A stretch of DNA of 64,000 nucleotides from Aureimonas sp. SK2. Lineage in GTDB: Bacteria; Pseudomonadota; Alphaproteobacteria; Rhizobiales; Rhizobiaceae. Made by a program: the position numbers and the translations under genes. A model generated the notes under the pieces. The model made no database searches, was not told the origin of the DNA, and was given only the letters and a program-made list of their open reading frames with translations. This document shows, one piece after another, positions 3,743 through 56,895 of the stretch. Positions within the stretch are counted from its first letter, which is position 1; each line of letters starts with the position of its first letter. The stretch is from the NCBI RefSeq assembly GCF_029813115.1, contig NZ_JAPZDS010000002.1:372001-436000 (forward strand), given 5' to 3'.

Positions 3743-3750
3743 AGCGGCCG

Positions 3751-10758: not shown

Positions 10759-10805
10759 GAAAGGGCTTATAGGCGCGGCGCATCCGTGCGAAAAGCGCCG
10801 CCATC

Positions 10806-12113
10806 ATGCAGCCTCGCCCGTCCCGCCCCGGTCTCCTCGTCGCAGCGCCCCAGTCGGGGAGCGGCAAGACGCTGCTGACCCTCGCGCTTCTGCGATGGGC
10901 GCGCCGACGCGGGCTTTTCGTCGCGCCGGCCAAGGCGGGACCGGACTATATCGACCCGGCCTTCCATGCCGCCGCCGCCGGACGCGCCTCGGTCAATCTC
11001 GACCCCTACGCCATGCGCCCTGCGCTGGTGCGGGACCTTGCCGCGGCCGATGGCCTGCCGCTCGTGGTCGAGGGCATGATGGGCCTCTTCGACGGCGCGG
11101 CGGACGGCACGGGATCGGCGGCCGACCTTGCCGAGGCGCTGGGCCTGCCCGTCCTCCTCGTGGTCGACTGCGCGAAGCAGTCGCATTCGGTGGCGGCGCT
11201 GGTGCGCGGCTTTCGCGACCATCGGCCGGGCCTGCGTTTCTGCGGCCTCGCGCTGAACCGCATCGGCAGCCCCCGGCACGAGGCGCTTCTGCGTGCGGCG
11301 CTGGAGCCGCTCGGCCTGCCCGTTCTGGCCGCGCTTCTCCGGCAGGAGGCGCTGGTCCTGCCCGAGCGCCATCTCGGCCTCGTTCAGGCGGGCGAGACCG
11401 CGGGGCTCGACGCCTTTCTTGAAGCGGCGGCGGACTGGTTCGCCGAAGGCGCTGACGCTGCGGCCTTCGAGGCGCTTCTCGGCCCCGCAAGCCCCACCTG
11501 TCCGGATCGGGCCGCCGTCGCCCGTCTCGCCCCCCTCGGCGCACGGATCGCCGTGGCGCGGGACGAGGCTTTCGCCTTCGCCTATCCCCATCTCCTCGAC
11601 GGCTGGCAGGCCGGCGGGGCGGAGCTCTCGTTCTTTTCGCCGCTCGCGGACGAGGGGCCGGACACGGCTGCGGACGCGGTGTTCCTGCCCGGCGGCTATC
11701 CCGAACTCCATGCCGGGCGGATCGCCGCCGCGAGCGGCTTCCGTGCCGGCATGGAAGCCGCGCGGGCGCGCGGTGCCCGGATCTACGGCGAGTGCGGCGG
11801 CTACATGGTGCTGGGCGAAGCGCTGGAGGATGCGGAGAGGCAGCGACACCCGATGCTCGGCTTCCTGCCGCTCGTCACCTCCTTCGCGCAGCGCCGGCTG
11901 CATCTCGGCTATCGCCGGCTTCGGCCCCGACCGGGTGGGCCTTGGGGCGAGCCGCTCGTCGGGCACGAGTTCCACTATTCCACCGCCGTCTGGGAGGGCG
12001 AAGCCGAACGCCTGTTCGAGGCGCGCGATGCGCTCGGCGCGGATCTCGGCGCCGTGGGTCTCCGGCGCGGCCAAGTCGCCGGCTCCTATCTCCACGTGGT
12101 GGATCTCGCATGA
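10806..12113 (+). CDS. cobB: Cobyrinate / hydrogenobyrinate a,c-diamide synthase CobB (CbiA)
   Basis: The enzyme amidates the a and c acetates of the corrin ring with glutamine and ATP. The 435 residues carry an N-terminal P-loop domain (LVAAPQSGSGKTLLTLALL, then AKAGPDYIDPAFH) and a C-terminal class I amidotransferase domain with nucleophile Cys in YGECGGYMVLGEAL and the downstream LVGHEFHYS. Length and order are normal. It leads a cobB-cobC-cbiB operon on the plus strand; its stop overlaps the cobC start (ATGA). Confidence 0.95.
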   Translation: MQPRPSRPGLLVAAPQSGSGKTLLTLALLRWARRRGLFVAPAKAGPDYIDPAFHAAAAGRASVNLDPYAMRPALVRDLAAADGLPLVVEGMMGLFDGAADGTGSAADLAEALGLPVLLVVDCAKQSHSVAALVRGFRDHRPGLRFCGLALNRIGSPRHEALLRAALEPLGLPVLAALLRQEALVLPERHLGLVQAGETAGLDAFLEAAADWFAEGADAAAFEALLGPASPTCPDRAAVARLAPLGARIAVARDEAFAFAYPHLLDGWQAGGAELSFFSPLADEGPDTAADAVFLPGGYPELHAGRIAAASGFRAGMEAARARGARIYGECGGYMVLGEALEDAERQRHPMLGFLPLVTSFAQRRLHLGYRRLRPRPGGPWGEPLVGHEFHYSTAVWEGEAERLFEARDALGADLGAVGLRRGQVAGSYLHVVDLA

Positions 12114-13126
12114 CGACCCATCTCGTCCATGGCGGGGCGCTGGGCGCTGCCGTCGCGCGCTTCGGCGGACGGCGGGAGGACTGGCTCGACCTGTCCACCG
12201 GCATCAATCCCGTGCCCCCACCTTTGCCCGAGCTTGAACCCGCCCTTTTCGCCCGTCTGCCGGAGGCCGAACTGGAAGCGGAAGCGCGCGAGGCGGCGCG
12301 CCTTCACTACGGCGCCGCTCCGGAGGCCGGGATCGTGGCGGCGCCCGGCAGCCAGGCGCTGATCTCGCTCCTGCCGCATCTCCTGCCGTCTGGGCCGGCG
12401 GCGATCCTTCATCCCGCCTATGCCGAGCACGCCCGCGCCTTTCGCGCGGCTGGCCGCGCCGTCCTTGGCCTGTCGGACCCTGCGGATGCGCCGGCTTCCG
12501 CCGCCGTCGCGGTCGTCGTGAACCCCAACAATCCCGACGGGCGCCGGTTTTCACGTGAATCGCTTTTGGAGCTGGCGGACGCGATGGCGGCACGCGGCGG
12601 CTGGCTGGTGGTGGACGAAGCCTTCATGGATGCCGATCCGCGCGAGAGCCTCGGACCCGACGCCGGGCGTCCGGGACTCGTGGTGCTGCGGTCCTTCGGC
12701 AAGTTCTTCGGCCTTGCGGGCCTGCGGCTCGGCTTTGCGCTGACGACGCGGGACCTTGCCGCCGGGATACACGCACGCCTCGGACCTTGGTCGGTGTCCG
12801 GCCCGGCCCTGGCCGTGGGCGCGCGGCTGATGGCGGACAGGGAGACGATCGCCGCCCTGCGCGCCGCCATTGCCGTGCGGTCGGCGCTGACGCGCGGCGC
12901 GATCGCGGCGGCGGGTCTCTGCCCCGAAGGCGAGGCGGCCCTCTTCTCCCTCGTGTCGGTGCCGAACGCGCATGCGCTGTTCGAGGCGCTGGCACGGCGG
13001 CGGATCCTCGTTCGTCCCTTTGCCGAACGGCCGGACTGGCTGCGATTCGGCGTGGTGCGCGACGCGGCCGAAGCGGAGCGGCTCCGAGCGGCCCTCGAGG
13101 CGGCCCTGCCGGAGCTCCGCGCTTGA
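12110..13126 (+). CDS. cobC: Threonine-phosphate decarboxylase CobC
   Basis: A PLP-dependent class I/II aminotransferase-fold enzyme (CobD in Salmonella naming) that makes aminopropanol phosphate for the lower-loop linker. The 338 residues open with HGGALGAAVARFG and LDLSTGINPVPPPLP, have VVVNPNNPDGR and LVVDEAFMD, and the PLP lysine in RSFGKFFGLAGLRLGF. The ATG at 12110 gives an ATGA overlap with cobB, and the TGA stop overlaps the TTG start of cbiB. Position between cobB and cbiB fits the pathway order. Confidence 0.94.
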   Translation: MTTHLVHGGALGAAVARFGGRREDWLDLSTGINPVPPPLPELEPALFARLPEAELEAEAREAARLHYGAAPEAGIVAAPGSQALISLLPHLLPSGPAAILHPAYAEHARAFRAAGRAVLGLSDPADAPASAAVAVVVNPNNPDGRRFSRESLLELADAMAARGGWLVVDEAFMDADPRESLGPDAGRPGLVVLRSFGKFFGLAGLRLGFALTTRDLAAGIHARLGPWSVSGPALAVGARLMADRETIAALRAAIAVRSALTRGAIAAAGLCPEGEAALFSLVSVPNAHALFEALARRRILVRPFAERPDWLRFGVVRDAAEAERLRAALEAALPELRA

Positions 13127-14088
13127 GCGTCTGGCTCGCCCCGCTGGCACTTGGGCTCGACCGGCTCGTTGGCGATCCCGACTGGCTGTGGCGACGCCTG
13201 CCCCATCCCGTGGCCGGCTTCGGCGCACTGATCGCGCTCGCCGATCGCTGGGGCAACCGTCCGCACTGGCCTAATCGTGGCCGCCGTCTGGCGGGTGTCG
13301 CATCCATCCTCGTGCTTCTCGCGCTCGCCGCGCTTCTCGGCGCCCTCCTGCACGGCCTCTTCCGGCCTCTCGGCTGGCCGGGTCTTGCGGTGGAGGCGGT
13401 GCTGGCGTCCGTGTTCCTGGCGCAGAAGAGCCTGATCGACCATGTCGCGCGCGTCGCGACGGCGCTGGAGGGCGAGGGTCTGGCGGCGGGGCGGCGGGCG
13501 GTGTCGATGATCGTCGGGCGCGACCCGGCTGCGCTGGACGAGGCGGGCGTCAGCCGCGCGGCGATCGAGAGTCTCGCCGAGAACGCCTCGGACGGGGTGG
13601 TCGCCCCGCTCTTCTTCCTTCTCCTCTTCGGCCTGCCGGGCCTCCTCGCCTACAAGATGCTGAACACGGCCGATTCGATGATCGGCCACTTGGACGAGCG
13701 CCATCGCGCCTTCGGCTGGGCGGCCGCGCGGCTCGACGACGTCGCCAACTGGATCCCCGCGCGCCTCACCGCTGGCCTCTTCGCCGTCGCGGCCTGGATC
13801 CTGCTGGGCCGCGCGAGCGCTTCGCGTGCGGCCCGTGCGGCGCTGGCCGACGGCTCGCGTCACCGCTCGCCCAATGCCGGCTGGCCGGAAGCGGCCGCAG
13901 CCGGCGCGCTAGACCTCGCGCTCGGCGGCCCGCGCCGCTATGGCGAACTCGCGGTCGAGGCGCCGTTTCTTCATGGATCGGGCCGGCGCGCGGCAGAGCC
14001 GGCCGACATCCGTCGGGGACTGCGCCTGTTCCGGCGTGTCTGCGATCTTCTCCTCGGTCTGACGCTGGTGCTTGCCCTCACGCTGTGA
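13123..14088 (+). CDS. cbiB: Adenosylcobinamide-phosphate synthase CbiB (CobD)
   Basis: An inner-membrane enzyme that attaches aminopropanol or its phosphate to adenosylcobyric acid. The 321-residue protein has several hydrophobic segments and the family motifs LAENASDGVVAPLF, YKMLNTADSMIGH and FGWAAARLDDVANWIPARLT. The start is taken as TTG at 13123 because it forms a TTGA overlap with the cobC stop and places the conserved WLAPLALGLDRLVGDP segment at the N-terminus; no ATG serves as well. The end overlaps the convergent cobS gene by 11 bp. Confidence 0.93.
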   Translation: MSVWLAPLALGLDRLVGDPDWLWRRLPHPVAGFGALIALADRWGNRPHWPNRGRRLAGVASILVLLALAALLGALLHGLFRPLGWPGLAVEAVLASVFLAQKSLIDHVARVATALEGEGLAAGRRAVSMIVGRDPAALDEAGVSRAAIESLAENASDGVVAPLFFLLLFGLPGLLAYKMLNTADSMIGHLDERHRAFGWAAARLDDVANWIPARLTAGLFAVAAWILLGRASASRAARAALADGSRHRSPNAGWPEAAAAGALDLALGGPRRYGELAVEAPFLHGSGRRAAEPADIRRGLRLFRRVCDLLLGLTLVLALTL

Positions 14089-14854
14089 GCAGGGCGAGGC
14101 CGAGCAGCCAGGCGAGTTCCGTAACCTGCTGGCAGGCGCCGAGCGTATCGCCCGTCTGGCCGCCCAGCCGGCGCCGGAGAACGCCGCTGAGGAGAAGCCA
14201 GGCGACCGCGGCCAGGAACGGCGGCAGGAGGACGGCGCCGGTGCCGAAGACGGGCAGCGTCGAGACCAGCGCCAGCAGGATGCCGATCAGGACGGCGAGC
14301 CGGCCGGCGCGTGGCGACGGGCGCCCCACCCGGTCGGCGAGGCCGCCGGGATCGGCGCTCGGCAGCGCGGCCCAGAGGAGCGCCATCGCGCCTCGGCTGG
14401 CGGCACCCGCGGCGGGCAGGGCCAGCGCGGCGGCGAGCGCCGAGCCGGCCGCGATGTCGGCAAGGAGCGCGATGCGCAGGAGGAGGGCGCCGACGAGCGC
14501 CAGCGCGCCATAGGTGCCGACCCGGCTGTCCTTCATGATCGCGAGCGCCCGGCTCCGGTCGGCATGCCCGAACAATCCGTCCGCCGTGTCGCCGAGCCCG
14601 TCTTCGTGCAGCGCGCCCGTCAGCGCGACGAGAAGGAGGACGGCGAGGGCGGAGGCGGCGAGCGGCGACAGACCGGTTTGGAGGACGCCGTAGAGGAGGA
14701 GGGCGGACGGGGCGGCCACCAGCAGCCCCACCACTGGAAAGGCGGGCGCATCCCGCCCCAGCGGCACGGGCGGCCCGGCGAAGGCGGCCGGCACGGCCGG
14801 CAGGCGGGTGAGAAAGGCGCCGGCGCGTAAGGCGGGGTACAGGAGGCGAATCAT
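14078..14854 (-). CDS. cobS: Adenosylcobinamide-GDP ribazoletransferase CobS (CobV)
   Basis: The membrane-bound cobalamin synthase joins adenosylcobinamide-GDP and alpha-ribazole (phosphate). The 258-residue, highly hydrophobic protein has the family start AFLTRLPAVP, the catalytic-region motif TGALHEDGLGDTADGLFG and IMKDSRVGTYGALAL. It is divergent from cobT with 115 bp between the starts. The gene stands alone on the minus strand between the cobB-cobC-cbiB operon and cobT. Confidence 0.95.
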   Translation of the reverse strand: MIRLLYPALRAGAFLTRLPAVPAAFAGPPVPLGRDAPAFPVVGLLVAAPSALLLYGVLQTGLSPLAASALAVLLLVALTGALHEDGLGDTADGLFGHADRSRALAIMKDSRVGTYGALALVGALLLRIALLADIAAGSALAAALALPAAGAASRGAMALLWAALPSADPGGLADRVGRPSPRAGRLAVLIGILLALVSTLPVFGTGAVLLPPFLAAVAWLLLSGVLRRRLGGQTGDTLGACQQVTELAWLLGLALLTA

Positions 14855-14969
14855 GCGCCGAGCCTACACCATGCCGGCCGGCCGCTCGCCGGCCGGACCG
14901 GTTTGCGCGAGGTCCCCTTTGCGCCTATCACGCGGGCAAACCCGCCCGACCTTTCCGGAGCCCAGCCCC

Positions 14970-15986
14970 ATGTCCGCCACCGGCCTTCCCTTCGACGACA
15001 TCCGCGCGCTTCTCCGACAGATGCCGCAGGCCGACGGGGCGGCCCGGCACGCGGCGCGCCACCGCCAGGAGGAGCTGACCAAGCCCTCGGGAAGCCTCGG
15101 CCGGCTGGAGGAGATCGCCGAGTGGATGGCGGCCTGGCAGGGGCGGGCGCCGACCGTCGACCGGCCCGTGGTCGCGGTCTTTGCCGGCAACCACGGCGTG
15201 GCCGCCAAGGGCGTTTCGGCCTTTCCACCGTCCGTCACGCAAGGCATGGTGGAGAACTTCGCGGCCGGGGGCGCCGCGATCAACCAGATCTGCGCGACCT
15301 TCGATCTCGGGCTCAAGATCTTCGACCTGGCGCTGGACTATCCGACCGCCGACATCTCGGAAGAGGCGGCGCTGTCGGAGCGCGACTGCGCCGCCACCAT
15401 GGCCTTCGGCATGGAATGCCTGGCGGGCGAGCCGGACCTCCTGATCCTCGGCGAGATGGGTATCGGCAACACGGCAGTGGCCGCCGCGCTCTTCGCGGCC
15501 CTGTTCGGCGGCACGGCCGCGGACTGGGTCGGCCCGGGTACGGGCCAGGACGCCGCCGGCATGGCGCGCAAGACGGCCGTGGTGGACCAGGCGCTCGACC
15601 TCCATCGCTCGCATTTCTCCGACCCGCTGGAAGTGCTGCGGCGCCTTGGGGGGCGCGAGATCGCGGCCATGAGCGGCGCGATTCTGGCCGCGCGCATGCA
15701 GCGCGTGCCGGTGATCGTGGACGGGTTCGTCGCCACGGCAGCGGCGGCCGTCCTCCATGCCATGGACGCAAGGGCGCTCGACCATTGCCTGTTCGGCCAC
15801 GTCTCGGCCGAGCCCGGCCACCAGAAGGCGCTCGCCGCCATGGACAAGGTACCGCTTCTGGCGCTCGGCATGCGGCTCGGCGAGGGCACCGGCGCGGCGT
15901 TGGCGGCGGCGGTCGTGAAGGCCGCGATCGCCTGCCACAACGGCATGGCGACCTTCGCGCAGGCGGGCGTCGCCAACCGCGACTGA
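14970..15986 (+). CDS. cobT: Nicotinate-nucleotide-dimethylbenzimidazole phosphoribosyltransferase CobT
   Basis: CobT activates the lower ligand by transferring phosphoribose from nicotinate mononucleotide to dimethylbenzimidazole (the enzyme called CobU in Pseudomonas denitrificans). The 338 residues include KPSGSLGRLEEIAEWMA, VFAGNHGVAAKGVSAFP, LGEMGIGNTAVAAAL and the catalytic glutamate loop LGMRLGEGTGAALA. ATG at 14970 is preferred over an upstream in-frame ATG because the protein then starts at the usual distance from the first motif. The end meets a convergent small gene after 2 bp. Confidence 0.95.
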   Translation: MSATGLPFDDIRALLRQMPQADGAARHAARHRQEELTKPSGSLGRLEEIAEWMAAWQGRAPTVDRPVVAVFAGNHGVAAKGVSAFPPSVTQGMVENFAAGGAAINQICATFDLGLKIFDLALDYPTADISEEAALSERDCAATMAFGMECLAGEPDLLILGEMGIGNTAVAAALFAALFGGTAADWVGPGTGQDAAGMARKTAVVDQALDLHRSHFSDPLEVLRRLGGREIAAMSGAILAARMQRVPVIVDGFVATAAAAVLHAMDARALDHCLFGHVSAEPGHQKALAAMDKVPLLALGMRLGEGTGAALAAAVVKAAIACHNGMATFAQAGVANRD

Positions 15987-27066: not shown

Positions 27067-28290
27067 TCAGGCGCCGTCGCCCCGCGCGATCCGCTCGCCG
27101 CGCCGCTCGTCGAAGAAGAACGGGCGAAGGCGCACGCCGACCGTGTTGCCCGCAAAGGCCGCGACGAGCCAGAGCCAGCCGTGCAGCGACCCGCTCGCGA
27201 TGCCGGAGAAATAGGCCCCGATATTGCAGCCATAAGCGATGCGCGCGCCGTAGCCGAGAAGGAGCCCGCCCACGACCGCCGCGGCGAGCGAGCGCAGCGG
27301 GATGCGAAGGCTCGGCGCGAACCGGCCGGCAAGGCTCGCCGCCAGCATGGCGCCCGCGATGATGCCGAAGTCCATCACCGAGGTGACGTCGGCAAAGACG
27401 CTGTTCGACAGGGCCTTGGCGTTGGCAGGTGTCTGCCAGTAGGCCCAGGCCGAGGGATCGAAGCCGATGGCTTGCGCGCCCTTGGCGCCCCAGAGCGCGA
27501 AGGCGGAGGTGATGCCCCAGGGCCGACCGGCGAGCGCGAGCGTCACGAAGTTCAGGACGGCGAGGGCGAGGGCCCCGGCGATCAGGGGCCAGGGGCCGCG
27601 CGCGAAGCGGGCGAAGCCCTTCGTGGCCGGCCGCGCCTCGGTCTCCAACGCGCCATGGCGACGCCGTTCGGCCCACACGGTCAGGGCGGCGATCGCGGCG
27701 AAGAGGGCGAGCGAAACGCCGATGCCGGGCAGGGGGCCGAGCGTGTGCACCAGCGAGACCGGCTGGATCGAGGGCAGCGCCAGCCACCAGTCGAAATGCA
27801 CCGTGGCGAGCACCGAGCCGACGATGAAGAAGACCAGCGTCACCAGCATGCGCGCGTTGCCGCCGCCGGCGGTGAACAGCGTTCCGGAGGCGCAGCCGCC
27901 GCCCATCTGCATGCCGATGCCGAACAGGAAGGCGCCGACGACGACGCCGGTCGAAAGCGGCGAGACGAGGCCGGTCACAGGCTGGCCGAACAGGGTACCC
28001 GCCCCGAGCGCGGGAAAGAACAGCACGACGGCGAGCGCCAGCATCGCCATCTGCGCCCGAAGGCCCCGCCCGCGCCGTTCCAGGATGAAGACCCGCCAGG
28101 CCGAGGTGAAGCCGAAGGCGGCGTGATAGAGCGTCAGGCCCAGCGCGCCGCCGAGCAGCAGCAGCGCGCCCTGGCGCGGACCGTAGGCTGCGCCCAGCGC
28201 GAGACTGCCGAGGAGAAGCGTCGCGAAGGCCGCAAGCCCCGGCGGGCCGGGCAGGACGGCGGGCGCGGGACGAAGGGTGGCATCGGTCAT
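27067..28290 (-). CDS. YeeE/YedE family transporter (thiosulfate/sulfur-compound uptake type)
   Basis: A 407-residue inner-membrane protein with about ten hydrophobic segments. It carries both cysteine-containing motifs of the YeeE/YedE (DUF395) family: MQMGGGCASGTLFTAGGG in the first half and ARIAYGCNIGAYFSGIASGSLHGW in the second. In structurally studied members these cysteines line a path for thiosulfate. The fused two-half length is that of the full-size family. An upstream dyad (28358-28372) may be its operator. Substrate is inferred from family only. Confidence 0.88.
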   Translation of the reverse strand: MTDATLRPAPAVLPGPPGLAAFATLLLGSLALGAAYGPRQGALLLLGGALGLTLYHAAFGFTSAWRVFILERRGRGLRAQMAMLALAVVLFFPALGAGTLFGQPVTGLVSPLSTGVVVGAFLFGIGMQMGGGCASGTLFTAGGGNARMLVTLVFFIVGSVLATVHFDWWLALPSIQPVSLVHTLGPLPGIGVSLALFAAIAALTVWAERRRHGALETEARPATKGFARFARGPWPLIAGALALAVLNFVTLALAGRPWGITSAFALWGAKGAQAIGFDPSAWAYWQTPANAKALSNSVFADVTSVMDFGIIAGAMLAASLAGRFAPSLRIPLRSLAAAVVGGLLLGYGARIAYGCNIGAYFSGIASGSLHGWLWLVAAFAGNTVGVRLRPFFFDERRGERIARGDGA

Positions 28291-35988: not shown

Positions 35989-37314
35989 TCAGCGCCCGTC
36001 GCGGATGCGCGAGAAATAGTCGTCGCCGCCGACCTGGCCCCCCTTCAGCGCGATCTCGAGCCCGTCGAAGGCCGGATCGTCGCTGTGGGCCAGCGCCAGG
36101 GGCGAGCCCGGCGTGTCGGCGAGTGGCAGGCGGGTGGTGAGCGCGTGGATGCCGAGCTGGCGCAGCGCGTGGCTTGACGTGTCGCCGCCCGCGATCACCG
36201 CGCGGCCGAGGCCGAGGCGTCGCACCAGGCCCGCCTGGAGCCGGCCGAGCCCGCGCCCGATGGCGTGGCGCGCGCCCTCCGTTTCGGCAAATTCCGCCCC
36301 GATGTCGCTTTCCGGCCCCATGGCGGTGTGGACGATCACCGAGCGACCGGCTCGGAGCGCGGTTTCGGCCCGCGCCTCGACGGCCTCGACCGCCGCCGTG
36401 TCGCCGGCCACGATGGCGCGTGGGTCGAAGGCGATCGGCTCGAAGCCGTTCTCGCCGGCATGCCGGATCTGGCGCTCTGTCGTGGGCGAGCAGCTTCCCG
36501 AGACGACCGAGATGCGCTCCGCCGGCGGGAGCGGCGCGAAGGCGGCGGGGGCGCCGATGCGGCCGGTCTTCGCCCAATGCGCCGTCAGCGCGTATTCGAC
36601 CCCGGAGGAGCCGACGGCGAAGCGGCAGCCCGCCTGCGCCAACCGTTCGAGCTGGCGCCCCACCGCGCCTTGCGTTTCCGTGTTCAGGACATCGAGAAGC
36701 ACGAGGCCGGGATCGGTGGCGAGGATCGCGTCGAGCCGGGCGTCGGCGTCCGGCACCGTTAGGGCGAGGTGGTCGAAGAGGGCGACGGAAAGAGTCGTCT
36801 GTTCGGCGAGATGCAGGGCGAGGTCGGCCTCGCGCATCGGTGTCACCGGATGGCGGCTCATGACGGGATGGCGGTCGATGCGGTAGGTCTCGCCCCGGTA
36901 ACCCGCGAAGAGGTGGCCGAAGGCGGTCCAGCGCTTGAGCGGGGGCGCGCCGACGACGAGCGGCACGGGGCGATCGCCGAACAGGGCGCGCCCGATCTCG
37001 GCGGCGCGCCCGATCGAGCCGATGGCCGGGCTCGAATCGAAGGTCGAGCAGACCTTGTAGTGGGTGAGGTCGGCGCCCAGCGACTTCAGCCACGCGAAGG
37101 CGGCCGGCAGGTTCTCGTCCATCCAGGCCGGCGTCTCGCTGCGGCTGGTGCCGGCAAGGCCGATCGCCCGGGCGTCCGGAAACTTCGCCCGCTGCGCCTG
37201 CGTCGGCACTTCGGTGAAGAGCACCGTCTCGATGCCGCTGGAGGCCAGCGACTCCATCACGTCCGTCGAGCCGGTCAGGTCGTCGCCGTAGAAGGCGAGG
37301 AGAGGCGCGGTCAT
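35989..37314 (-). CDS. oiaK: 3-oxo-isoapionate kinase, four-carbon acid sugar kinase family
   Basis: A 441-residue DUF1537/four-carbon-acid sugar kinase. The N-terminal domain opens LLAFYGDDLTGSTDVMESLASSG and has YKVCSTFDSSPAIGSIG; the C-terminal nucleotide-binding domain shows VIVHTAMGPESD, AVIAGGDTSSHALRQLG and ALKGGQVGGDDYF. In known D-apiose pathways this family phosphorylates 3-oxo-isoapionate, and the kinase gene lies beside a RuBisCO-like decarboxylase gene, as here (3 bp between the oiaX stop and this ATG). The specific substrate is inferred from this neighbourhood; the family is certain. Confidence 0.82.
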   Translation of the reverse strand: MTAPLLAFYGDDLTGSTDVMESLASSGIETVLFTEVPTQAQRAKFPDARAIGLAGTSRSETPAWMDENLPAAFAWLKSLGADLTHYKVCSTFDSSPAIGSIGRAAEIGRALFGDRPVPLVVGAPPLKRWTAFGHLFAGYRGETYRIDRHPVMSRHPVTPMREADLALHLAEQTTLSVALFDHLALTVPDADARLDAILATDPGLVLLDVLNTETQGAVGRQLERLAQAGCRFAVGSSGVEYALTAHWAKTGRIGAPAAFAPLPPAERISVVSGSCSPTTERQIRHAGENGFEPIAFDPRAIVAGDTAAVEAVEARAETALRAGRSVIVHTAMGPESDIGAEFAETEGARHAIGRGLGRLQAGLVRRLGLGRAVIAGGDTSSHALRQLGIHALTTRLPLADTPGSPLALAHSDDPAFDGLEIALKGGQVGGDDYFSRIRDGR

Positions 37315-37317
37315 GGC

Positions 37318-38595
37318 TCAGGCTCCCTTGGCGTCCGGCCCGCCGAAGGCGCGGAGCGAGGCGGCGAGTTCGGGGCGGTCGGCGGCGAAGGTCGCAAGGT
37401 CGATGCCGGCCACGGCGGCCTCCCACGCCTGCCGGACCGCGCGCACGCCCGCCGCCGGGCCCATCGGATGGCTGACGACGCCGCCGCCGCAGAGGTACAG
37501 GAGGTCGGTCGAGCGCGCCGCGGCATAGGTCTCGGGCGCCTGCCCGCCCCATTGGCCCGAACACACGACGGGGAGCGGCCGGTCGTCCTCGCGAAACAGC
37601 GGGCGGCGCAGCGCCGCGTAGGAGCGGCGGAAGGACTCGTCCGGCTCCCAGTACTTCGCCCCGATGCCGTTGATCTGGAACTGGTCGACGCCGAGGAGGC
37701 GCCAGACTGTCTCGTAGACCGAAAAGTCGAGCCCGAGCGAGGGGTGGCGCGTGAGGATGTCCCAGCCGTTGCGATGGGCATGGAGCACCAGCCCCGAGCG
37801 CTTGCGCAGAAAGGCCATGGCGCCCATGCCGATCGAGTTGATGTTGACGACGGCCGCATTGCCGCCGGCGGCCAGCACCGTGTCGTGGTTTCGCATCATC
37901 TCGTCGGGGTCGGTGGCGGAGATGCCGAAGGCGACCATCACCTTCTTGCCCGTGCGCTGCTCGTGGTCGAGCACGACCGGCATGATCGCCTTCACACGCT
38001 CGTCGAGCGGCGAATAGGCCGGGCTCATCAGCTTCTCGTCGTCCTTGATGAAGTCGACGCCGGCCTCCACCAGCTCGCGCACCATGGCCGCGCTTTCGGG
38101 CGGGCGCAGGCCCAGCGCCGGCTTGACGATGGTGCCGATGATCGGGCGCCCCGAGACGCCGGTGAGCCGCTTGGACCCCTCGATGCCGAACTGCGGCCCG
38201 GGCCAGGCGCGGCCGAAGGCCTCCGGCAGCTTCAGGCCGGTGATCCGGATGCCGCTGAAGCCCTTGATGGAAAAGGTGCCGGCGATGGCGATGGTCATCA
38301 GGGCGGCGAGGTCGGTGCCGATCGCCTCCATGGGAAAGGCGATGTCGGCTTCGCCGCACTGGAAGACGCGGGGCTCTGCGAGGTCGTCATGACTGCGCCC
38401 GAAGGCGGGTTCGGAAGCGGGCTCCAGGTGCCGCACGGCCAGGACCCGCGCGGCGACGCGCGCCTTCAGCTCCGGCGTCTCGCCCGGCAGCGGAACGAAG
38501 GTGCCCGTGGACTGGTCGCTCGCGATCTTTGCGGCCAGCTTCTCGACGCTGCCCGGCGTCTCGATCCGGTAGGTCAGGACGATGTCGTCGCTCAT
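37318..38595 (-). CDS. oiaX: RuBisCO-like protein, probable 3-oxo-isoapionate-4-phosphate decarboxylase
   Basis: A 425-residue RuBisCO large-subunit-like protein. It keeps the carbamylated-lysine motif as GVDFIKDDE (Lys184, Asp186, Glu187) and Lys158 in GTIVKPALGL, but the second lysine expected in that loop is Ala160, so it cannot be a CO2-fixing RuBisCO. HAHRNGWDILTRHPSLGLDF is typical of RuBisCO-like proteins. Beside a four-carbon-acid kinase, ApnO, ApsD and ApnL homologues, the best call is OiaX of D-apiose catabolism, which decarboxylates 3-oxo-isoapionate 4-phosphate. It leads the oiaX-oiaK operon, divergent from a GntR gene. Confidence 0.85.
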   Translation of the reverse strand: MSDDIVLTYRIETPGSVEKLAAKIASDQSTGTFVPLPGETPELKARVAARVLAVRHLEPASEPAFGRSHDDLAEPRVFQCGEADIAFPMEAIGTDLAALMTIAIAGTFSIKGFSGIRITGLKLPEAFGRAWPGPQFGIEGSKRLTGVSGRPIIGTIVKPALGLRPPESAAMVRELVEAGVDFIKDDEKLMSPAYSPLDERVKAIMPVVLDHEQRTGKKVMVAFGISATDPDEMMRNHDTVLAAGGNAAVVNINSIGMGAMAFLRKRSGLVLHAHRNGWDILTRHPSLGLDFSVYETVWRLLGVDQFQINGIGAKYWEPDESFRRSYAALRRPLFREDDRPLPVVCSGQWGGQAPETYAAARSTDLLYLCGGGVVSHPMGPAAGVRAVRQAWEAAVAGIDLATFAADRPELAASLRAFGGPDAKGA

Positions 38596-38641
38596 GGGCG
38601 AGGCCTGTGGGAAGGGGAGGGGAAGCGCGGGGGCGGCGCAT

Positions 38642-38662
38642 CTGGTATGGTCGCGATACCAG
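38642..38662. promoter_or_regulatory. Palindromic operator between oiaX and the GntR gene
   Basis: CTGGTAT and ATACCAG form a perfect 7-bp dyad with a 7-bp spacer, 47 bp upstream of oiaX and 54 bp upstream of the divergent regulator gene. The TGGTAT...ATACCA form is like operators of FCD-type GntR regulators. The 8-mer CTGGTATG recurs in the dyad upstream of apnO (43263-43287), as expected for a shared regulator. Confidence 0.6.
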
Positions 38663-38715
38663 CGCAGAGGCCGCCGCATTCGGCGGCGCAAGGATCGGGA
38701 GCGGAAGCGTCAGGC

Positions 38716-39429
38716 ATGGTGAAGCCGTTCGAACCGATCGTCCGCCGCAAGCTGTCCGCGGAAGTCTACGAGCGTCTGAAGGCGATGATCACGTCGGGCG
38801 AGCTGAAGCCCGGCGACCAGATGCCCTCCGAGCGCGAGCTGATGGAGCGTTTCGGCGTCGGCCGGCCGGCGATCCGCGAGGCGATGCAGACGCTGAACGG
38901 CATGGGGCTCGTCGCCATCTCGCACGGGGAGCGTGCCAAGGTCCTCAGCCTCACGCCGCGCTCGCTGTTCGGGCAGGTGGACCGGGCGGCCGAGATCATG
39001 CTGACCACATCGCCCGCCGCGCTCGGCCACCTGAAGGAGGCGCGCATCTTCTTCGAGCGGGGCATCGTGCGCCAGGCCGCCGAGCGCGCCGATCCGCCCG
39101 ATGTCGAGGCGCTCGCCGCGCTCTTGGCCGAGCAGCGCGACGCGCTCGGCACGCCGGAACTCTTCGTGCGCACGGACATGCGCTTCCACGCGCGGATCGC
39201 CGCCATTCCCGGCAACCCGATCTTCGAGGCGGTGGCCGAATCCATGCTCGGATGGCTGCGCCAGTACCACAACGAGCTCCTGATCTGGAGCGGCCGGGAG
39301 AACGTCACCCTCCTGGAGCACGAGGAGATCCTCCAGGCCATCGCCGCCGGCGATCCCGATGCCGCCGAGGCGGCGATGGTGCGCCATCTCGAGCGCTCGC
39401 GCGAACAGTTCCGCCATCAGAGCGCCTGA
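38716..39429 (+). CDS. GntR/FadR (FCD) transcriptional regulator of the apiose genes
   Basis: A 237-residue regulator with an N-terminal GntR winged helix (about 10-75; KLSAEVYERLKAMITSGELKPGDQMPSERELMERFGVGRPAIREAMQTL) and a C-terminal FCD ligand-binding domain (DMRFHARIAAIPGNPIFEAV, and HEEILQAIAAGDPDAAEAAM). FCD members sense sugar acids or organic acids, here perhaps an apionate intermediate. It is divergent from oiaX and its 3' end overlaps apnL by 13 bp in convergent orientation, placing it in the middle of the two apiose operons. Confidence 0.9.
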   Translation: MVKPFEPIVRRKLSAEVYERLKAMITSGELKPGDQMPSERELMERFGVGRPAIREAMQTLNGMGLVAISHGERAKVLSLTPRSLFGQVDRAAEIMLTTSPAALGHLKEARIFFERGIVRQAAERADPPDVEALAALLAEQRDALGTPELFVRTDMRFHARIAAIPGNPIFEAVAESMLGWLRQYHNELLIWSGRENVTLLEHEEILQAIAAGDPDAAEAAMVRHLERSREQFRHQSA

Positions 39430-41342
39430 GCGAGGACGAGCCGGGCGACCGCATAGGGCGGCAGGCGCAAGGGCTCCTCGACGGGCCGCTCCGGCGGCAT
39501 CGCGCCGCCGGCCGCCGCGTCGAAGGCGGCTTCATCGAGCAGCGAGAGGGTGGCGCCGGGGGCGATCCCCTCCAGCACAGCGTCCTGCGTTTCCGGCGTG
39601 AGGTTGGCGAGCCAGACCTCACGCCGGCCGTCGGCGCGGCGGGCGGCGAAGCCGTCCACCGTCCCGCGCCGGCCGGAGCGAAGCTCCAGCCGCTCGGCGC
39701 CACCGACCGCGGCGAGCCCCCGCGCCACGTGATAGGCCGGCGCGACCCCGCCCCCGTCGAGAAAAAGCCCGTGCGGGCCGGCAAGGCTCGCACCCGCCCA
39801 GGCCTCGACGGCGGAGCCCGCGAGGCGCGCGGCGTAGCCGACCAGGAAAGCCGCGCCGAACTGGCCTCTCGCGCGCGGGTCGTCGTGCGCCATCGGAACG
39901 CGCCGCCCGTCCGGGTTCGGCATGGTGCGCGAGCCGTAGGGGTTCTGCCGCATGCCGATCGTCGTCGGTCCGAGACGGTAGGGCTTGGCGTCGACGAAGC
40001 CTTCGGTCGAGCGCGTGATGAAGGGGATCGCCTCCAGCGTCTGCATCACCGAAAGATCGTCGGCGGCGTGGACGATCGGGTTGGTCGCATGGGTGACGAA
40101 GTCGAGGCCTTCGAGCGGCACGCGCTTGCGGTTCAACTCGGTGAAATAGCTGACCATGCCGCCGCCGAGCGTGACGCCCGGAAAGGCGGCGCGGGCGGCG
40201 CGGTAGACCGCGTCCAGCGGCGGGCAGGCCGGCCAGGCGCTGCCGGGCGGCGTCGACCGGCGATCGGCATCGGGGCTGACGACGAGCGCCTGTGGACGGA
40301 GGCCCGACGCTTCGACCATCCGGGCAACGTCGGCGAGTTCCGCCTGCGGGTCGTCCCGGCCGGGCAGGACGAGTTCAAGCACGCGCTCGGCCTGCGGCGC
40401 CAGGGCGGCGATGCGGGCGAAGGCTTCCAGCGCGCCCGAGCCGTGGCCGGCGAGCGGGTCGAGATGGAAGAGCAGAAAGGCGGGCGCGAGATCGGCCAGC
40501 CGCTCGGGCCGGTCGAGCACCGCCTCCGCCTCCTCGGGTGCGACGGCGGGGCCGAAGCGCGGCATGGGGCGAGGAAGAGGGGCCCCGAGCCGGAGCCGGA
40601 CCGGGCCGGCTTCGTCCCGGGACTCGGCGCCGGCAAAACCTTCGGCTCCTTCGATGCGCAGCGTCACCGACTGACGGTCGGCGACCCCCGCCTCCATCCG
40701 GTAGGGCCAGGGCTTGGCCAGCGGGCGCACGTAGGTCTTGTAGGACGCGTCCGACCAGGCGCGCTGGTCTTCCATCTCGAAGGCATCGCCCTCCATCCGG
40801 CAGGTGGCGGAAAGGCCGAGTGCGGGATCGTGCGTCAGCGCGCGAATGTCCTGGAAGGGCTGCCAGGGCTCGATCCGATCGGGAAACCGCGCCTCCTCCA
40901 CCCGTCCGTCGGTGTGCTCCACGCGGAGCGGTGTGCCGGCGACGCCCTCGATCGGATGCAGCACACAGAAGCCGCAGCGGTTGGTCTCGAAGGGCCGGTC
41001 GGGCCGGGCCTCGACCGCAAAGGACAGGCGTCCGTCGGCCTCGCCCTCGATCGTGGCCTCGTAGGCGAGGCGCGCGCCGTCCGGCGCCTCGACCTCGGCC
41101 CGGTAGCGGACCCGGAAGCGGTTCCCGCCTTCCTCGACATGGAGGTCGCGGATCGGCGGATCGTAGGTGCCCCAGTCGCGGTCGCGCACGACATAGGAGA
41201 CGGCGCGCAGCACCTCGACGCCGGCAAACGCGATCCCGCGCAGGTTGCCGGAGACGAGATCGGCCGTGAGCCGCCCCGCCCGGAGACGCCGCGCGGGGGC
41301 GACCTCCTCGCGCGTGCCGAAGAGCTTCAGCGCGTCCGCCAT
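39417..41342 (-). CDS. apnL: Probable D-apionate lactonase ApnL
   Basis: A 641-residue protein without a recognisable signal peptide. I can see no classic domain motif; the N-terminal third has a beta-rich pattern with RALTHDPALGLSATCRMEGD, and the central part looks like a TIM-barrel (GVTLGGGMVSYFTELNRKRVP, DFVTHATNPIVHAADDLSVMQTLEAI). It lies between apsD (1 bp gap) and the GntR gene in a cluster with the full set of D-apiose genes, where a long protein of this kind is the D-apionolactonase. The assignment therefore rests on context and overall size rather than on catalytic residues I can point to. Confidence 0.7.
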   Translation of the reverse strand: MADALKLFGTREEVAPARRLRAGRLTADLVSGNLRGIAFAGVEVLRAVSYVVRDRDWGTYDPPIRDLHVEEGGNRFRVRYRAEVEAPDGARLAYEATIEGEADGRLSFAVEARPDRPFETNRCGFCVLHPIEGVAGTPLRVEHTDGRVEEARFPDRIEPWQPFQDIRALTHDPALGLSATCRMEGDAFEMEDQRAWSDASYKTYVRPLAKPWPYRMEAGVADRQSVTLRIEGAEGFAGAESRDEAGPVRLRLGAPLPRPMPRFGPAVAPEEAEAVLDRPERLADLAPAFLLFHLDPLAGHGSGALEAFARIAALAPQAERVLELVLPGRDDPQAELADVARMVEASGLRPQALVVSPDADRRSTPPGSAWPACPPLDAVYRAARAAFPGVTLGGGMVSYFTELNRKRVPLEGLDFVTHATNPIVHAADDLSVMQTLEAIPFITRSTEGFVDAKPYRLGPTTIGMRQNPYGSRTMPNPDGRRVPMAHDDPRARGQFGAAFLVGYAARLAGSAVEAWAGASLAGPHGLFLDGGGVAPAYHVARGLAAVGGAERLELRSGRRGTVDGFAARRADGRREVWLANLTPETQDAVLEGIAPGATLSLLDEAAFDAAAGGAMPPERPVEEPLRLPPYAVARLVLAQAL

Positions 41343-41343
41343 G

Positions 41344-42372
41344 TCAGACCTCCGACGGGTCGAGCGTCGCGCCGGTCGCGGCGCTGCGATAGGCGGCCTC
41401 GACCAAGGCGAAGGTCTTCAGGTTGTCGCGACCGGACGTCGCGGGCTCCGTGCCGGCGCTCAAGGACTCGACCCAGTGCCGCTGGATCAGCGCGACGCTC
41501 TCCTGGATGTTGTGCCAGGGGCGGGAGGCCCAGGAGAGGAGCGGCGGCGAGACGTCCTCGTGCCGCGTGCCGTTCGGGCCGGTCACGGTCAGGCGATAGC
41601 CTTCGTCCAGCCGGATCGTGCCGTCCGCCCCGTCGATCTCGACCAGCGTCTGCGGGAAGCGCTCGGTCTCCAGCTTCGTGGCGTAGGAACAGTCCACCAC
41701 GGAGGAGAAGCCCGCCTCGTGATCGAGGAGCATGGTCGCGACGTCCTCGCCGCGGATCGCCAAGTTCACGCGTTTCGTGCGCGCGGTGATGCGCGCGACG
41801 TCGCCGAACAGGAAGCGGGCGATATCGAGGGCGTGGATGCCGAGGTCCTCGATGATGAAGCGCTCGCCCTCTGCCAGATAGGGCTGGCCGGCATAGACGT
41901 CGTAGGCGGAGCGGAACGAGACGCGGCCGAAGAAGGGCGCCCCGATCTCGCCGGAGTCCAAGACCCGCCGCACCGCCTGGATCGGCGACTGCCAGCGGAA
42001 GTTCTCGTGGATCATCAGCGGCACGCCGGCGCTCTCGCAGGCGACGACCATCGCCCGCGCGTCGTCCATGGTGGGCGCGAAGGGCTTCTGGCAGATCGCG
42101 GGGATCGTCAGCGACGCCGCGAGTTCCACCAGCGCGCGGTGGCTCGGCGCGGTGGTGGCGATGTCGACGAAGTCGGGCCGCACCTCGCGCAGCATCGCCT
42201 CCGCGTCGGTGAAGCGCCGGGCGACGCCGAAGCGCTCGCCCATCTCACGCAATCGCGTTTCGTCGCGGTCGCAGATCGCGACGATGGAGACGCCCGGGAT
42301 GTCGCCCCAGGCGTGCATCTGGTTGACGGCGAAGAAGCCGCAGCCGATCAGGGCGCCGCGTAGCTCGCTCAT
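41344..42372 (-). CDS. apsD: Gfo/Idh/MocA oxidoreductase, probable D-apiose dehydrogenase ApsD
   Basis: A 342-residue NAD(P)-dependent sugar dehydrogenase of the Gfo/Idh/MocA family. The Rossmann start is GALIGCGFFAVNQMHAW, the substrate-side lysine occurs in AICQKPFAPT (QKP in place of the common EKP), and the conserved histidine is in IIEDLGIHALDIARFLFG. D-apiose dehydrogenases that make apionolactone belong to this family. Its operon neighbours (apnO upstream by 13 bp, apnL downstream by 1 bp) match the order lactone formation, hydrolysis and oxidation. Substrate is inferred. Confidence 0.8.
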   Translation of the reverse strand: MSELRGALIGCGFFAVNQMHAWGDIPGVSIVAICDRDETRLREMGERFGVARRFTDAEAMLREVRPDFVDIATTAPSHRALVELAASLTIPAICQKPFAPTMDDARAMVVACESAGVPLMIHENFRWQSPIQAVRRVLDSGEIGAPFFGRVSFRSAYDVYAGQPYLAEGERFIIEDLGIHALDIARFLFGDVARITARTKRVNLAIRGEDVATMLLDHEAGFSSVVDCSYATKLETERFPQTLVEIDGADGTIRLDEGYRLTVTGPNGTRHEDVSPPLLSWASRPWHNIQESVALIQRHWVESLSAGTEPATSGRDNLKTFALVEAAYRSAATGATLDPSEV

Positions 42373-42385
42373 GGGACGATCCCGC

Positions 42386-43213
42386 TCAGGTGATGCGGCG
42401 GATGGAGGCCATCAGCTCGTCCGGCTCGAAGACCCGCTTCCAGTCGTCGCGCATCAGGGCCGGCTTGCCGAACTCGATCGCCTTGTTGCAGGCGTCGGAG
42501 AAGACGCCCGGCGTTTCCTCGAAGATCACGGCGCCCAGCACGTTCATGTGGCCGAGTAGGAAGTCGCGGGCGGCTTCCTTCGGCACGCCGCGCGCCACCA
42601 CCTCGTCCATCGCCTCGCGCATCACCACGAGAAGGCTCGCCGTCACGGTCTCGGACAGGCCGGGCTCCAAGAGCGCCATCTGCTCCACCGTAATGCGGTG
42701 CGAGCGCATCACCGGTGCCCAGATCACCTTGGCGATCTCCTCGCCCAGCGCATAGGCCTCGTCGGGGCCTTGCATCAGCGCGGAGACGATATGCTGCTTG
42801 GCCGCGACGCCGCCGAAGAAGTCGCGCTTGGCAGCCTCGTCGGTCTCGTCGTTGAAGATCGGCGGGTGACAGGGATGGGTGACGAAATAGGTGAGGTCGG
42901 CGCGCTCGGGCAGGTGGCCGGCGAAGGGCGCGGCGGCGTCGAGGATCACCACCATCGTGCCGGGCTTGAGCTTGGCCTCGATGCCGGACAGGACCTTTCC
43001 GATCAGCGTGTCGGGCACGGCGAGGACGACGACGTCGGCACCCGCGAGGGCGGCGTCCTCGTCGACGCAGGTGACGCCGAGATGCGCCTGCAGCCGCTCG
43101 CGGCCCGCCTCGGAGCGCTCGACATGGCGCACGTCGAAGCGCGACCCCTTGAGATTGCCGGCAAGGCGGGTGCCCATCTTTCCGCCGGCCCCGAACAGGG
43201 CGATCGAAGTCAT
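42386..43213 (-). CDS. apnO: Probable D-apionate oxidoisomerase ApnO
   Basis: A 275-residue dehydrogenase with an N-terminal Rossmann domain (IALFGAGGKMGTRLAGNLKGS) and a helical C-terminal domain like that of 6-phosphogluconate dehydrogenase relatives (TYFVTHPCHPPIFNDETDE, AKQHIVSALMQGPDEAYALGEE). Such a protein oxidises and rearranges D-apionate to 3-oxo-isoapionate in known apiose gene sets. It is first in the apnO-apsD-apnL operon; ATG 43213 follows an AGGATCC stretch and is preferred to ATG 43243. A palindrome (43263-43287) lies just upstream. Confidence 0.8.
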   Translation of the reverse strand: MTSIALFGAGGKMGTRLAGNLKGSRFDVRHVERSEAGRERLQAHLGVTCVDEDAALAGADVVVLAVPDTLIGKVLSGIEAKLKPGTMVVILDAAAPFAGHLPERADLTYFVTHPCHPPIFNDETDEAAKRDFFGGVAAKQHIVSALMQGPDEAYALGEEIAKVIWAPVMRSHRITVEQMALLEPGLSETVTASLLVVMREAMDEVVARGVPKEAARDFLLGHMNVLGAVIFEETPGVFSDACNKAIEFGKPALMRDDWKRVFEPDELMASIRRIT

Positions 43214-43262: not shown

Positions 43263-43287
43263 AACTCGTCAACTGGTATGACGAGTT
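43263..43287 (-). promoter_or_regulatory. Palindromic operator upstream of apnO
   Basis: AACTCGTCA and TGACGAGTT form a perfect 9-bp dyad around ACTGGTA. The site also contains CTGGTATG (43273-43280), the half-site found in the oiaX/gntR intergenic dyad. It lies 50 bp upstream of the apnO start, a position suited to repression. Probably a binding site of the cluster's GntR regulator. Confidence 0.5.
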
Positions 43288-43297
43288 TGAGAGGCGA

Positions 43298-43510
43298 TCA
43301 GGACTCTTCGAGCGTGAAGCCGATCTTCAGGCCGACCTGATAATGCGCTACGCGGCCGCCCTCGACATGGCCGCGGGTTTCCGTGACCTCGAACCAGCGG
43401 ATATTGCGCACGGTCCTGGCCGCGTCGGCGATGGCGTTCTCGATCGCCTGCTCGACCGATTCCGGCGAGGAGCCGACGATCTCGACGATCTTGTAGGTGT
43501 GCTCGGACAT
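43298..43510 (-). CDS. Dodecin family flavin-binding protein
   Basis: A 70-residue dodecin, which assembles into a hollow dodecamer that stores or buffers flavins. The sequence has the family order [44 protein letters not shown] (including the flavin-stacking tryptophan) and a final strand [17 protein letters not shown] 43510 gives the usual length. It stands on the minus strand between the apnO upstream region and an S24 regulator gene. Confidence 0.95.
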
Positions 43511-55380: not shown

Positions 55381-56895
55381 ATGAGCTCACCGCTGTCGTT
55401 CTTCTTTCGGCGTGACGGCCAGCGCCCGAGCGAGAGCGCAGGAGAGCGGATCGATTTCGGAAAGGCGATCGAACCGGTGCAGCCACGTGTCTCCAACCCC
55501 GCCCCGGCGGGCCATGGGGGCTTCGTGCCTCCGCTCGACAATATCGGCCAGCGCAACGAGATGCTGAAGGTGCGCATCGGCGAGATGGCCGAGCGTCTCA
55601 CCGACCTGCGCAGCCTGACGGACGACTTCGCCCAGCTCATCGGCCCGATCGAGACGATCGCCGAGGAGCTGCCGCGCTCCAAGTCGCGTATCCTCGAGCT
55701 CGAGGCCCTGCTCCAGCAGGAGATGGAAGGCGGACAGGCGCTGCGCCGCGAGGTGGACTCGCTGCTCGGCCGCTACTCCACCGCCTCCAGCGAGCTGTCC
55801 ACCGCGATGGCGCGCGCGACGCGCCTCGAAAACCTCCTGCGCGAGCAGGAAACCGCCTTCGACGAGCAGCGCCTCACGCTGCGCGAGAAGACCACCCATG
55901 CCAACGCGCTGGAGCGCCAGCTTCTCGCCGAGGTCGAGCAGAACCAGTCGCTCGCCCTGGAGGTGAAGACGCTCCGGGCCGAGGCGCAGGTGTCCGATCA
56001 GGCGCTGGCCGACGCCGAGCGGATGCTGGCCGAGGTCTCCGAGCGCCGCCAGATCCTGGAGCAGGAGAACCGCCGGCTCCAGAGCCTTGCCGAGGAGCAG
56101 GCCGCCGAGCTGGTCACCTCGGGCACCCGCAACGACGAGCTGGAAGCCCAGATCGAGGCGCATCTCCAGACGATCGCGCTGCAGGAGACCCAGATCGCCG
56201 CCGAGCAGGCGGGCCGCCAGCGCGCCGTCACCCAGCTCGAGGCAGAACTTGCCGCGATCAAGACCGAGCGGTCCAGCGCCGGCATGAAGATCGAAGCCCT
56301 GTCGGCACGCCTGATGGCGACGGACCAGATCCTCGCCCAGGTGCGCGGCCAGCTCCGCGAGCGCGAGGAGGCCATGCGCGCCGCCGAGCGGGCCAACAAG
56401 GAGGCGATCGCCGAGCGCACCACCTTCGACCGGCGCCTGGAAGCCAGCAAGACGGAGGCCTCGCGCCTCCTCGCGCAGCTCCAGGACGCCCAGAAGGGGC
56501 GCACGGAGCTGGAAGCGCGCTGCGACATGCTGGTCAAGGCGCTGGCCGCCAAGGATGCCGCGCTCGAAGGCGTCACCTCGCGGGCGAACAATCTCTCCGA
56601 CCGCGTCGAGGCGCTCACCCTGCGCTTCGAGCAGGAGCGCCAGACCCTGGAGGCGACCAACCGCCGCCTGATCGAGGAGCTGCAGACCGAGAAGGCCGAG
56701 CGCACGCTGGCCCAGGGTGCGCTCGACATCGCGCGCGAGAACCGCACGGCCCTGCAGCGCCAGAACGAGACGCTGAAGCGGGCGACGCGCACGCGCGGCG
56801 ATGCGGGCCTCTACGGCGACGGGATGCCCGAGGGTCCGGGCGGCGACGCCCATTCCAACGTGCGCCCCTTCATGATGCCCGAAAAGGGGGAGTAA
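55381..56895 (+). CDS. Long coiled-coil protein of unknown function
   Basis: A 504-residue protein with a non-helical N-terminus (SPLSFFFRRDGQRP, then GHGGFVPPLDN) and an almost unbroken coiled coil from about residue 60 to 470, rich in Glu, Gln, Leu, Arg and Ala heptads (for example SKSRILELEALLQQEMEG and QRNEMLKVRIGEMAERL). There is no signal peptide or membrane segment. The form is like bacterial filament-type or scaffold proteins, but I cannot name a family. It leads a set of three coiled-coil genes on the plus strand. ATG 55381 is preferred to ATG 55315 by its position before the conserved-looking FFFRRDG segment. Confidence 0.8.
   Translation: MSSPLSFFFRRDGQRPSESAGERIDFGKAIEPVQPRVSNPAPAGHGGFVPPLDNIGQRNEMLKVRIGEMAERLTDLRSLTDDFAQLIGPIETIAEELPRSKSRILELEALLQQEMEGGQALRREVDSLLGRYSTASSELSTAMARATRLENLLREQETAFDEQRLTLREKTTHANALERQLLAEVEQNQSLALEVKTLRAEAQVSDQALADAERMLAEVSERRQILEQENRRLQSLAEEQAAELVTSGTRNDELEAQIEAHLQTIALQETQIAAEQAGRQRAVTQLEAELAAIKTERSSAGMKIEALSARLMATDQILAQVRGQLREREEAMRAAERANKEAIAERTTFDRRLEASKTEASRLLAQLQDAQKGRTELEARCDMLVKALAAKDAALEGVTSRANNLSDRVEALTLRFEQERQTLEATNRRLIEELQTEKAERTLAQGALDIARENRTALQRQNETLKRATRTRGDAGLYGDGMPEGPGGDAHSNVRPFMMPEKGE

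Follow-up and report, generated by a model that had tools for sequence, protein, structure and literature searches.

The genes considered here lie at positions 35989-43213 of a 64,000-nucleotide stretch of Aureimonas sp. SK2 DNA (positions 372,001 to 436,000 of contig NZ_JAPZDS010000002.1, assembly GCF_029813115.1), hereafter the window, in a genome of 4.56 Mb that is assembled in 89 contigs with a completeness of 99.96%. Gene calling places five open genes, oiaK, oiaX, apnL, apsD and apnO, on the minus strand of this interval in two units (oiaK-oiaX and apnL-apsD-apnO), with a plus-strand regulator gene of the GntR/NanR type in between. This bears out the original prediction, made from the letters alone, of a complete upper D-apiose catabolic gene set in two operons around a GntR regulator, with the genes open and in the places it gave them. 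The first unit comprises oiaK (35989-37314), which encodes a DUF1537-type kinase of 441 amino acids (aa) with the domains PF07005 and PF17042, predicted to be a 3-oxo-isoapionate kinase, and oiaX (37318-38595), which encodes a RuBisCO-like protein of 425 aa and a predicted 3-oxo-isoapionate-4-phosphate decarboxylase. The regulator gene (38716-39429) is divergent from oiaX, encodes a GntR/FCD protein of 237 aa, and overlaps apnL by 13 bases where the 3' ends of the two genes meet. The second unit consists of apnL (39417-41342; predicted D-apionolactonase, 641 aa), apsD (41344-42372; a Gfo/Idh/MocA oxidoreductase of 342 aa, predicted D-apiose dehydrogenase) and apnO (42386-43213; predicted D-apionate oxidoisomerase, 275 aa). 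Two candidate operators accompany them: TGGTATN7ATACCA at 38643-38661, between oiaX and the regulator gene, and TCGTCATACCAGTTGACGA at 43266-43284 on the minus strand, upstream of apnO, which contains the inverted repeat AACTCGTCA/TGACGAGTT. A dodecin gene (43298-43510) lies directly upstream of apnO.

As a reference for identities we used the cluster on plasmid p42f of Rhizobium etli CFN 42 (NC_007766), whose oiaX is annotated as such; identity to it is 61% for OiaK, 73% for OiaX, 62% for the GntR regulator, 55% for ApnL, 69% for ApsD and 80% for ApnO. In an NCBIfam scan, OiaX (NF042437, 753.5 bits against a cut-off of 700) and ApnL (NF049900, 828.5 bits against 750) exceed curated cut-offs, as does the regulator, which carries the domains PF00392 and PF07729, for the NanR-subfamily model (NF003011, 327.3 bits against 260). 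In a midpoint-rooted tree of 60 rows of RuBisCO-like proteins, the window OiaX falls with R. etli OiaX into a clade of 22 rows with support of 100/100. For this tree the program flagged long branches that meet between the OiaX clade and the rows of three loci discussed below (L124, L126 and L127). The nearest relatives of the window OiaX are the OiaX proteins of Aureimonas flava (92%) and of A. phyllosphaerae and Aureimonas sp. AU22 (90% each). Alignment to solved RuBisCO enzymes shows that the window protein retains the KDDE motif, which we take to be the metal site, and its score with the form III RuBisCO model TIGR03326 (215.9) is far below 497.45, so that by this measure it would not be a form III carbon-fixing enzyme. 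ApnO has no ApnO model among its NCBIfam matches and is assigned by homology only, through its PGDH_C domain (PF16896, 252.1 bits) and a match of 434 bits to PDB 5t57, which is presumably ApnO. ApnL matched no Pfam family, and no solved relative of it was found by sequence. The names that the original prediction had given to these genes are therefore upheld at two levels: OiaX and ApnL by family model, and all of them by identity to R. etli and shared neighborhood, ApsD and OiaK being predicted from identity and gene context only.

As OiaX and ApnL alone among the five enzymes exceed curated cut-offs and ApsD belongs to a broad family (Gfo/Idh/MocA; PF01408/PF22725), it might be supposed that the true substrate, handled by similar chemistry, is some other branched compound, either a sugar or an acid (a relative of hamamelose or a tetronate, for instance). 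We consider this very improbable in view of the equivalog scores of OiaX and ApnL, the clade shared with R. etli OiaX, and a conserved linkage, described below, to an importer whose R. etli binding protein, in its mature part, aligns without mismatch with PDB 5ibq and 4ry0, the former being a structure that presumably holds apiose. A tetronate or inositol pathway in particular is ruled out by the scores of OiaX and ApnL and by the OiaX clade; the window kinase scores 178.7 with the 3-oxo-tetronate kinase model (cut-off 350) and the window dehydrogenase 96.1 with the inositol model (cut-off 355).

With a RuBisCO-like protein of the OiaX type, the pathway would be expected to yield a tetrulose phosphate, and the claim that this gene set would turn D-apiose into such a compound is supported by the family models, the identities to R. 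etli and the shared neighborhood. The reactions of the ApsD-ApnL-ApnO-OiaK-OiaX route can be assigned to the genes of the window as follows. ApsD would convert D-apiose to a lactone, which ApnL would open to D-apionate; ApnO would oxidize D-apionate and move its hydroxymethyl group to yield 3-oxo-isoapionate; OiaK would phosphorylate this intermediate; and OiaX would decarboxylate the phosphorylated acid to L-erythrulose 1-phosphate. LerI-like and DerI-like isomerases, coded on another contig, would then carry L-erythrulose 1-phosphate on to D-erythrose 4-phosphate. We infer the substrates, the reactions and their control, and we put at nearly nine in ten the probability that the locus encodes an OiaX-type oxidative D-apiose pathway of a known kind. 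What we observe directly is homology, neighborhood, operator conservation, purifying selection and the lack of any match to the cognate importers in the assembly. The enzymes are ordinary; in contrast to most relatives, no sugar importer adjoins them, and the enzymes for the last steps are predicted to be coded elsewhere in the genome.

The isomerases illustrate the second of these features. In R. etli, TPI-like and RpiB-like genes, which we take to be LerI and DerI, adjoin oiaK. In the Aureimonas genome a LerI-like gene (56%, PF00121) and a DerI-like gene (72%, PF02502) lie 3.4 kb apart on a different contig, C11, in the company of genes for a transketolase, a class II aldolase and a SorC-type sugar-binding regulator. 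Across loci, one or both of these genes have relatives in 24 of 81 OiaX loci; where the RuBisCO-like protein is of another kind, none of 18 loci has any (Fisher p 0.005, for loci that are related and hence not independent), as expected if the product of OiaX is a tetrulose phosphate. These homologues support the view that the last-step enzymes are predicted to be coded elsewhere in the genome.

The comparison loci, all titled, were the best 80 of 484 relatives by OiaX and so the nearest ones, and counts cover the stretch around each OiaX, which for seven loci is shorter than 20 kb owing to contig ends. All six genes occur together in 65 of the 80, and such a recurrent grouping is not chance. 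A four-gene ATP-binding cassette (ABC) importer, composed of a binding protein, a DUF2291 protein, an ATPase and a permease, is linked in 58 of the 80, with L013 having a partial copy and L059 only distant matches (51% and 48%). When the six genes were compared with those of L004, L005 and L008, they were open and free of internal stops in all 18 gene comparisons, with ratios of nonsynonymous to synonymous substitution (dN/dS) of 0.056-0.323, from which it follows that they are maintained. Decay into pseudogenes after loss of the importer is ruled out on the same grounds, the absence of internal stops and a dN/dS of 0.06-0.32.

The operators are conserved as well. The sequence at 38643-38661 is the genome's only exact match to TGGTATN7ATACCA, and across loci the 150 bases upstream of oiaX contain a half-site (TGGTAT or ATACCA) in 73 of 81 cases, where shuffled sequence leads one to expect 4.4. 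In the corresponding 150 bases the count for apnO is 55 of 68 (3.9 expected), and for the controls apsD and oiaK it is 7 of 74 (3.0 expected) and 0 of 80 (1.5 expected). The loci are related, and hence none of these counts is made up of independent cases. Where the importer does not follow apnO, 11 of the 12 usable rows have a site upstream of the gene for the binding protein, L046 being the one that is without it; L016 and L075 were excluded from this count, with the gene at the edge of the locus. It is probable that the GntR regulator controls both units through TGGTAT/ATACCA operators. A genome-wide search with the apnO operator returned the site at 43266-43284 as the sole match with fewer than three mismatches, and the only other matches, two with three mismatches versus one in the control, are no excess over chance. 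No transporter was called in the 3 kb loci around the two one-mismatch matches of the oiaX-type pattern. On contig C11, no exact half-site stands directly before the isomerase genes; the 20 kb around them contain two exact half-sites, one before an unrelated-looking neighbor and one inside the regulator gene. The suggestion made with the original prediction, that an importer might be found elsewhere in the genome under the same operator, was thus followed genome-wide and yielded none.

Several observations weigh against the assignment to D-apiose. The first group concerns the enzymes: the best NCBIfam match of OiaK is NF042436 at 456.6 bits, below the cut-off of 700, and ApsD has no ApsD model among its matches. 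For the kinase, the five other cluster kinases scanned also fall short (440.7-473.2, that of R. etli scoring 473.2), and because all six do so this cut-off does not separate cluster kinases. The second is that 57 of the 81 OiaX loci, those of Aureimonas included, are without a LerI- or DerI-like gene in the stretch examined. Finally, no importer is linked to the gene set in the window, and this genome has neither an orthologue of the cognate ABC importer, the best match to its binding protein being 49% identical, nor a match to the major facilitator superfamily (MFS) carrier found in other Aureimonas. Within the window itself, a Pfam scan of 38 of the 51 called proteins and three further open reading frames revealed no sugar transporter and no tetrulose-phosphate isomerase, as had been claimed, the sole small-molecule transporter family seen being a sulphur-transport family at 27067-28290. 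The further expectation that uptake and the last steps would be coded elsewhere or differ is supported for the last steps by the isomerase homologues on C11; for uptake, neither the cognate ABC importer nor the MFS carrier was found in the genome.

Among 21 genomes of the genus, OiaX is present in 18, the cognate binding protein (89-91% identity) in nine and the MFS carrier (75-79%) in eight. The 18 OiaX-bearing genomes divide into six with the ABC importer only, five with the MFS carrier only, three with both and four with neither, these last being the present genome, G004 (A. flava by position), G012, and G018 (by position an uncultured Aureimonas assembly). Absence from these assemblies, most of them drafts, does not amount to proof, while the present assembly is nearly complete. 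Two sister genomes that by position are A. phyllosphaerae (G009) and Aureimonas sp. AU22 (G015) have the ABC operon on a contig other than that of the enzymes, with the operator upstream (L123 and L122, respectively). By position, L005 and L008 come from these two genomes, and therefore L004 is the only further importer-less case among the loci used for dN/dS. The gene order is dodecin, operator, importer and apnO in Aureimonas sp. ME7 (L009), and dodecin, operator and apnO in the window; most simply, the importer genes would have been lost from this place, leaving the operator behind.

The MFS carrier is linked to the apiose set in L006 (12793-14055), L007 (12700-14013), L009 (12701-13978) and L013 (3883-5178), as well as in L010, L016 and, in Labrys, L046, and may stand in for the ABC importer or act alongside it. 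Two other transporters were considered and rejected. An ABC system on contig C15 is only 49% identical to the cognate importer, lies near FGGY-kinase-like, GlpD-like and SorC-type genes, and has counterparts (49-51%) in eight of the nine genomes that possess the true cognate importer. Locus L098 (10354-19086), with an ABC importer, a DUF2291-like gene, a SorC-type regulator and FGGY-kinase-like and GlpD-like genes, resembles one for polyol use. The Tct genes near the A. flava locus, of which TctA is confirmed and the other two are named from sequence, were treated as chance neighbors; in L008 and L009 the set is likewise followed by Tct-like genes, which are absent from the matching place in the window.

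The pattern of importers raises the possibility that the sugar importer has been lost and that the present role of the enzymes is in the use of D-apionate or some other branched acid taken up as such, leaving ApsD and ApnL little used. Consistent with this, the cognate ABC importer was found neither in this genome nor in three further ones that have OiaX and are also without the MFS carrier, and five relatives have only that carrier, a major facilitator which we take to resemble an acid carrier. On the other hand, ApsD and ApnL are intact with dN/dS of 0.16-0.32, and the MFS carrier was not found in this genome either, and we regard entry as the acid as improbable. The best candidate for uptake is the ABC system of a second RuBisCO-like-protein cluster, on contig C34.

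This cluster (L097, 6866-16646) encodes a RuBisCO-like protein, an ApnO-like protein, a xylose-isomerase-like TIM barrel, a PdxA-like protein, a GntR regulator and the ABC importer. Its RuBisCO-like protein is 42% identical to the window OiaX, scores 437.9 against the OiaX cut-off of 700 and belongs to a separate clade. A scan of 297 family genomes with this protein gave matches at the set threshold in 31, this one included; seven of the other matches are at least 70% identical, and the weakest include OiaX-type proteins. Of the 20 kb regions around those seven, six have a canonical ApnO gene nearby, and two have the C34-type importer next to genes for OiaK, ApnL and ApnO. An orthologue of the C34 binding protein was found in only one other genome of the genus (G006, 81%; others 38-41%), and this importer cannot therefore explain the other three importer-less genomes. 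Evidence on the operator points both ways: no exact TGGTAT/ATACCA half-site precedes the C34 genes in this genome, which speaks against shared control, and in L125, from the G006 relative, both half-sites occur in two intergenic stretches, which speaks for a related operator. It is tempting to picture a split network in which the window supplies an OiaX branch without an importer and the C34 cluster supplies uptake and a second exit, through its RuBisCO-like protein and by a reaction other than the decarboxylation of OiaX, although we hold this arrangement to be rather unlikely.

RuBisCO-like proteins of further kinds were also encountered. A third type, again a separate clade, occurs in three genomes of the genus (L124, 5183-11214; L126, 9427-15459; L127, 9979-16010), where its gene adjoins those for a glyoxalase-like protein of ~179 aa and a TRAP permease. 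At L172 (8706-15182) and L173 (8520-14953), a RuBisCO-like protein is found beside an OiaK-like kinase (44-45%), an epimerase-like protein (NAD-dependent, PF01370 in L172) and TRAP-like genes; no ApnO match lies in the 20 kb stretch of either, and these loci are possibly another acid-sugar route. Elsewhere in the window are a run of cobalamin biosynthesis genes at 2648-15986 (CbiX, CbiG, CbiD, CobD, CobS and DBI_PRT) and, at 55381-56895, a protein that matches the crescentin rod domain over its full length (PF19220, 435 bits).

Among the closest known systems, the R. etli p42f cluster has the same six genes at 55-80% identity and a NanR-type regulator divergent from oiaX, but its run also includes both isomerase genes (TPI-like and RpiB-like) and the ABC importer of four genes, neither of which is in the window, and its gene order differs. 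Loci L036 and L082 of R. rhizogenes share the gene set of the window, but include an ABC importer in the run, which the window is without. Two RuBisCO-like activities on 3-oxo-isoapionate 4-phosphate, a decarboxylase and a transcarboxylase/hydrolase, are described in PMC6302742, where the decarboxylase of Agrobacterium radiobacter K84 is attributed to Carter et al., 2018, the paper that defined the pathway. The window protein is likened to the K84 enzyme by that description, as a RuBisCO-like decarboxylase of the same substrate. The Xanthobacter transcarboxylase/hydrolase branch shares this substrate and is set apart, as described in the same source, by a different reaction; the clade to which the window protein belongs is that of OiaX. 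In PMC11747546, the Rhodobacteraceae strain LCG007 is reported to grow on D-apiose as sole carbon source and to have five enzymes with the same annotated names. No paper that combines Aureimonas and apiose was found in the literature collection that we searched.

The locus extends predicted D-apiose use to Aureimonas. It also suggests that importer and enzymes can separate in evolution while the operator stays, as in the two sister genomes in which the importer operon, with its operator upstream, is on another contig. A genome with these enzymes and no match to the cognate importer presents a clean case for finding a new apiose importer, and the C34 cluster, as a second, uncharacterized RuBisCO-like-protein pathway in the same genome, is the most interesting lead.

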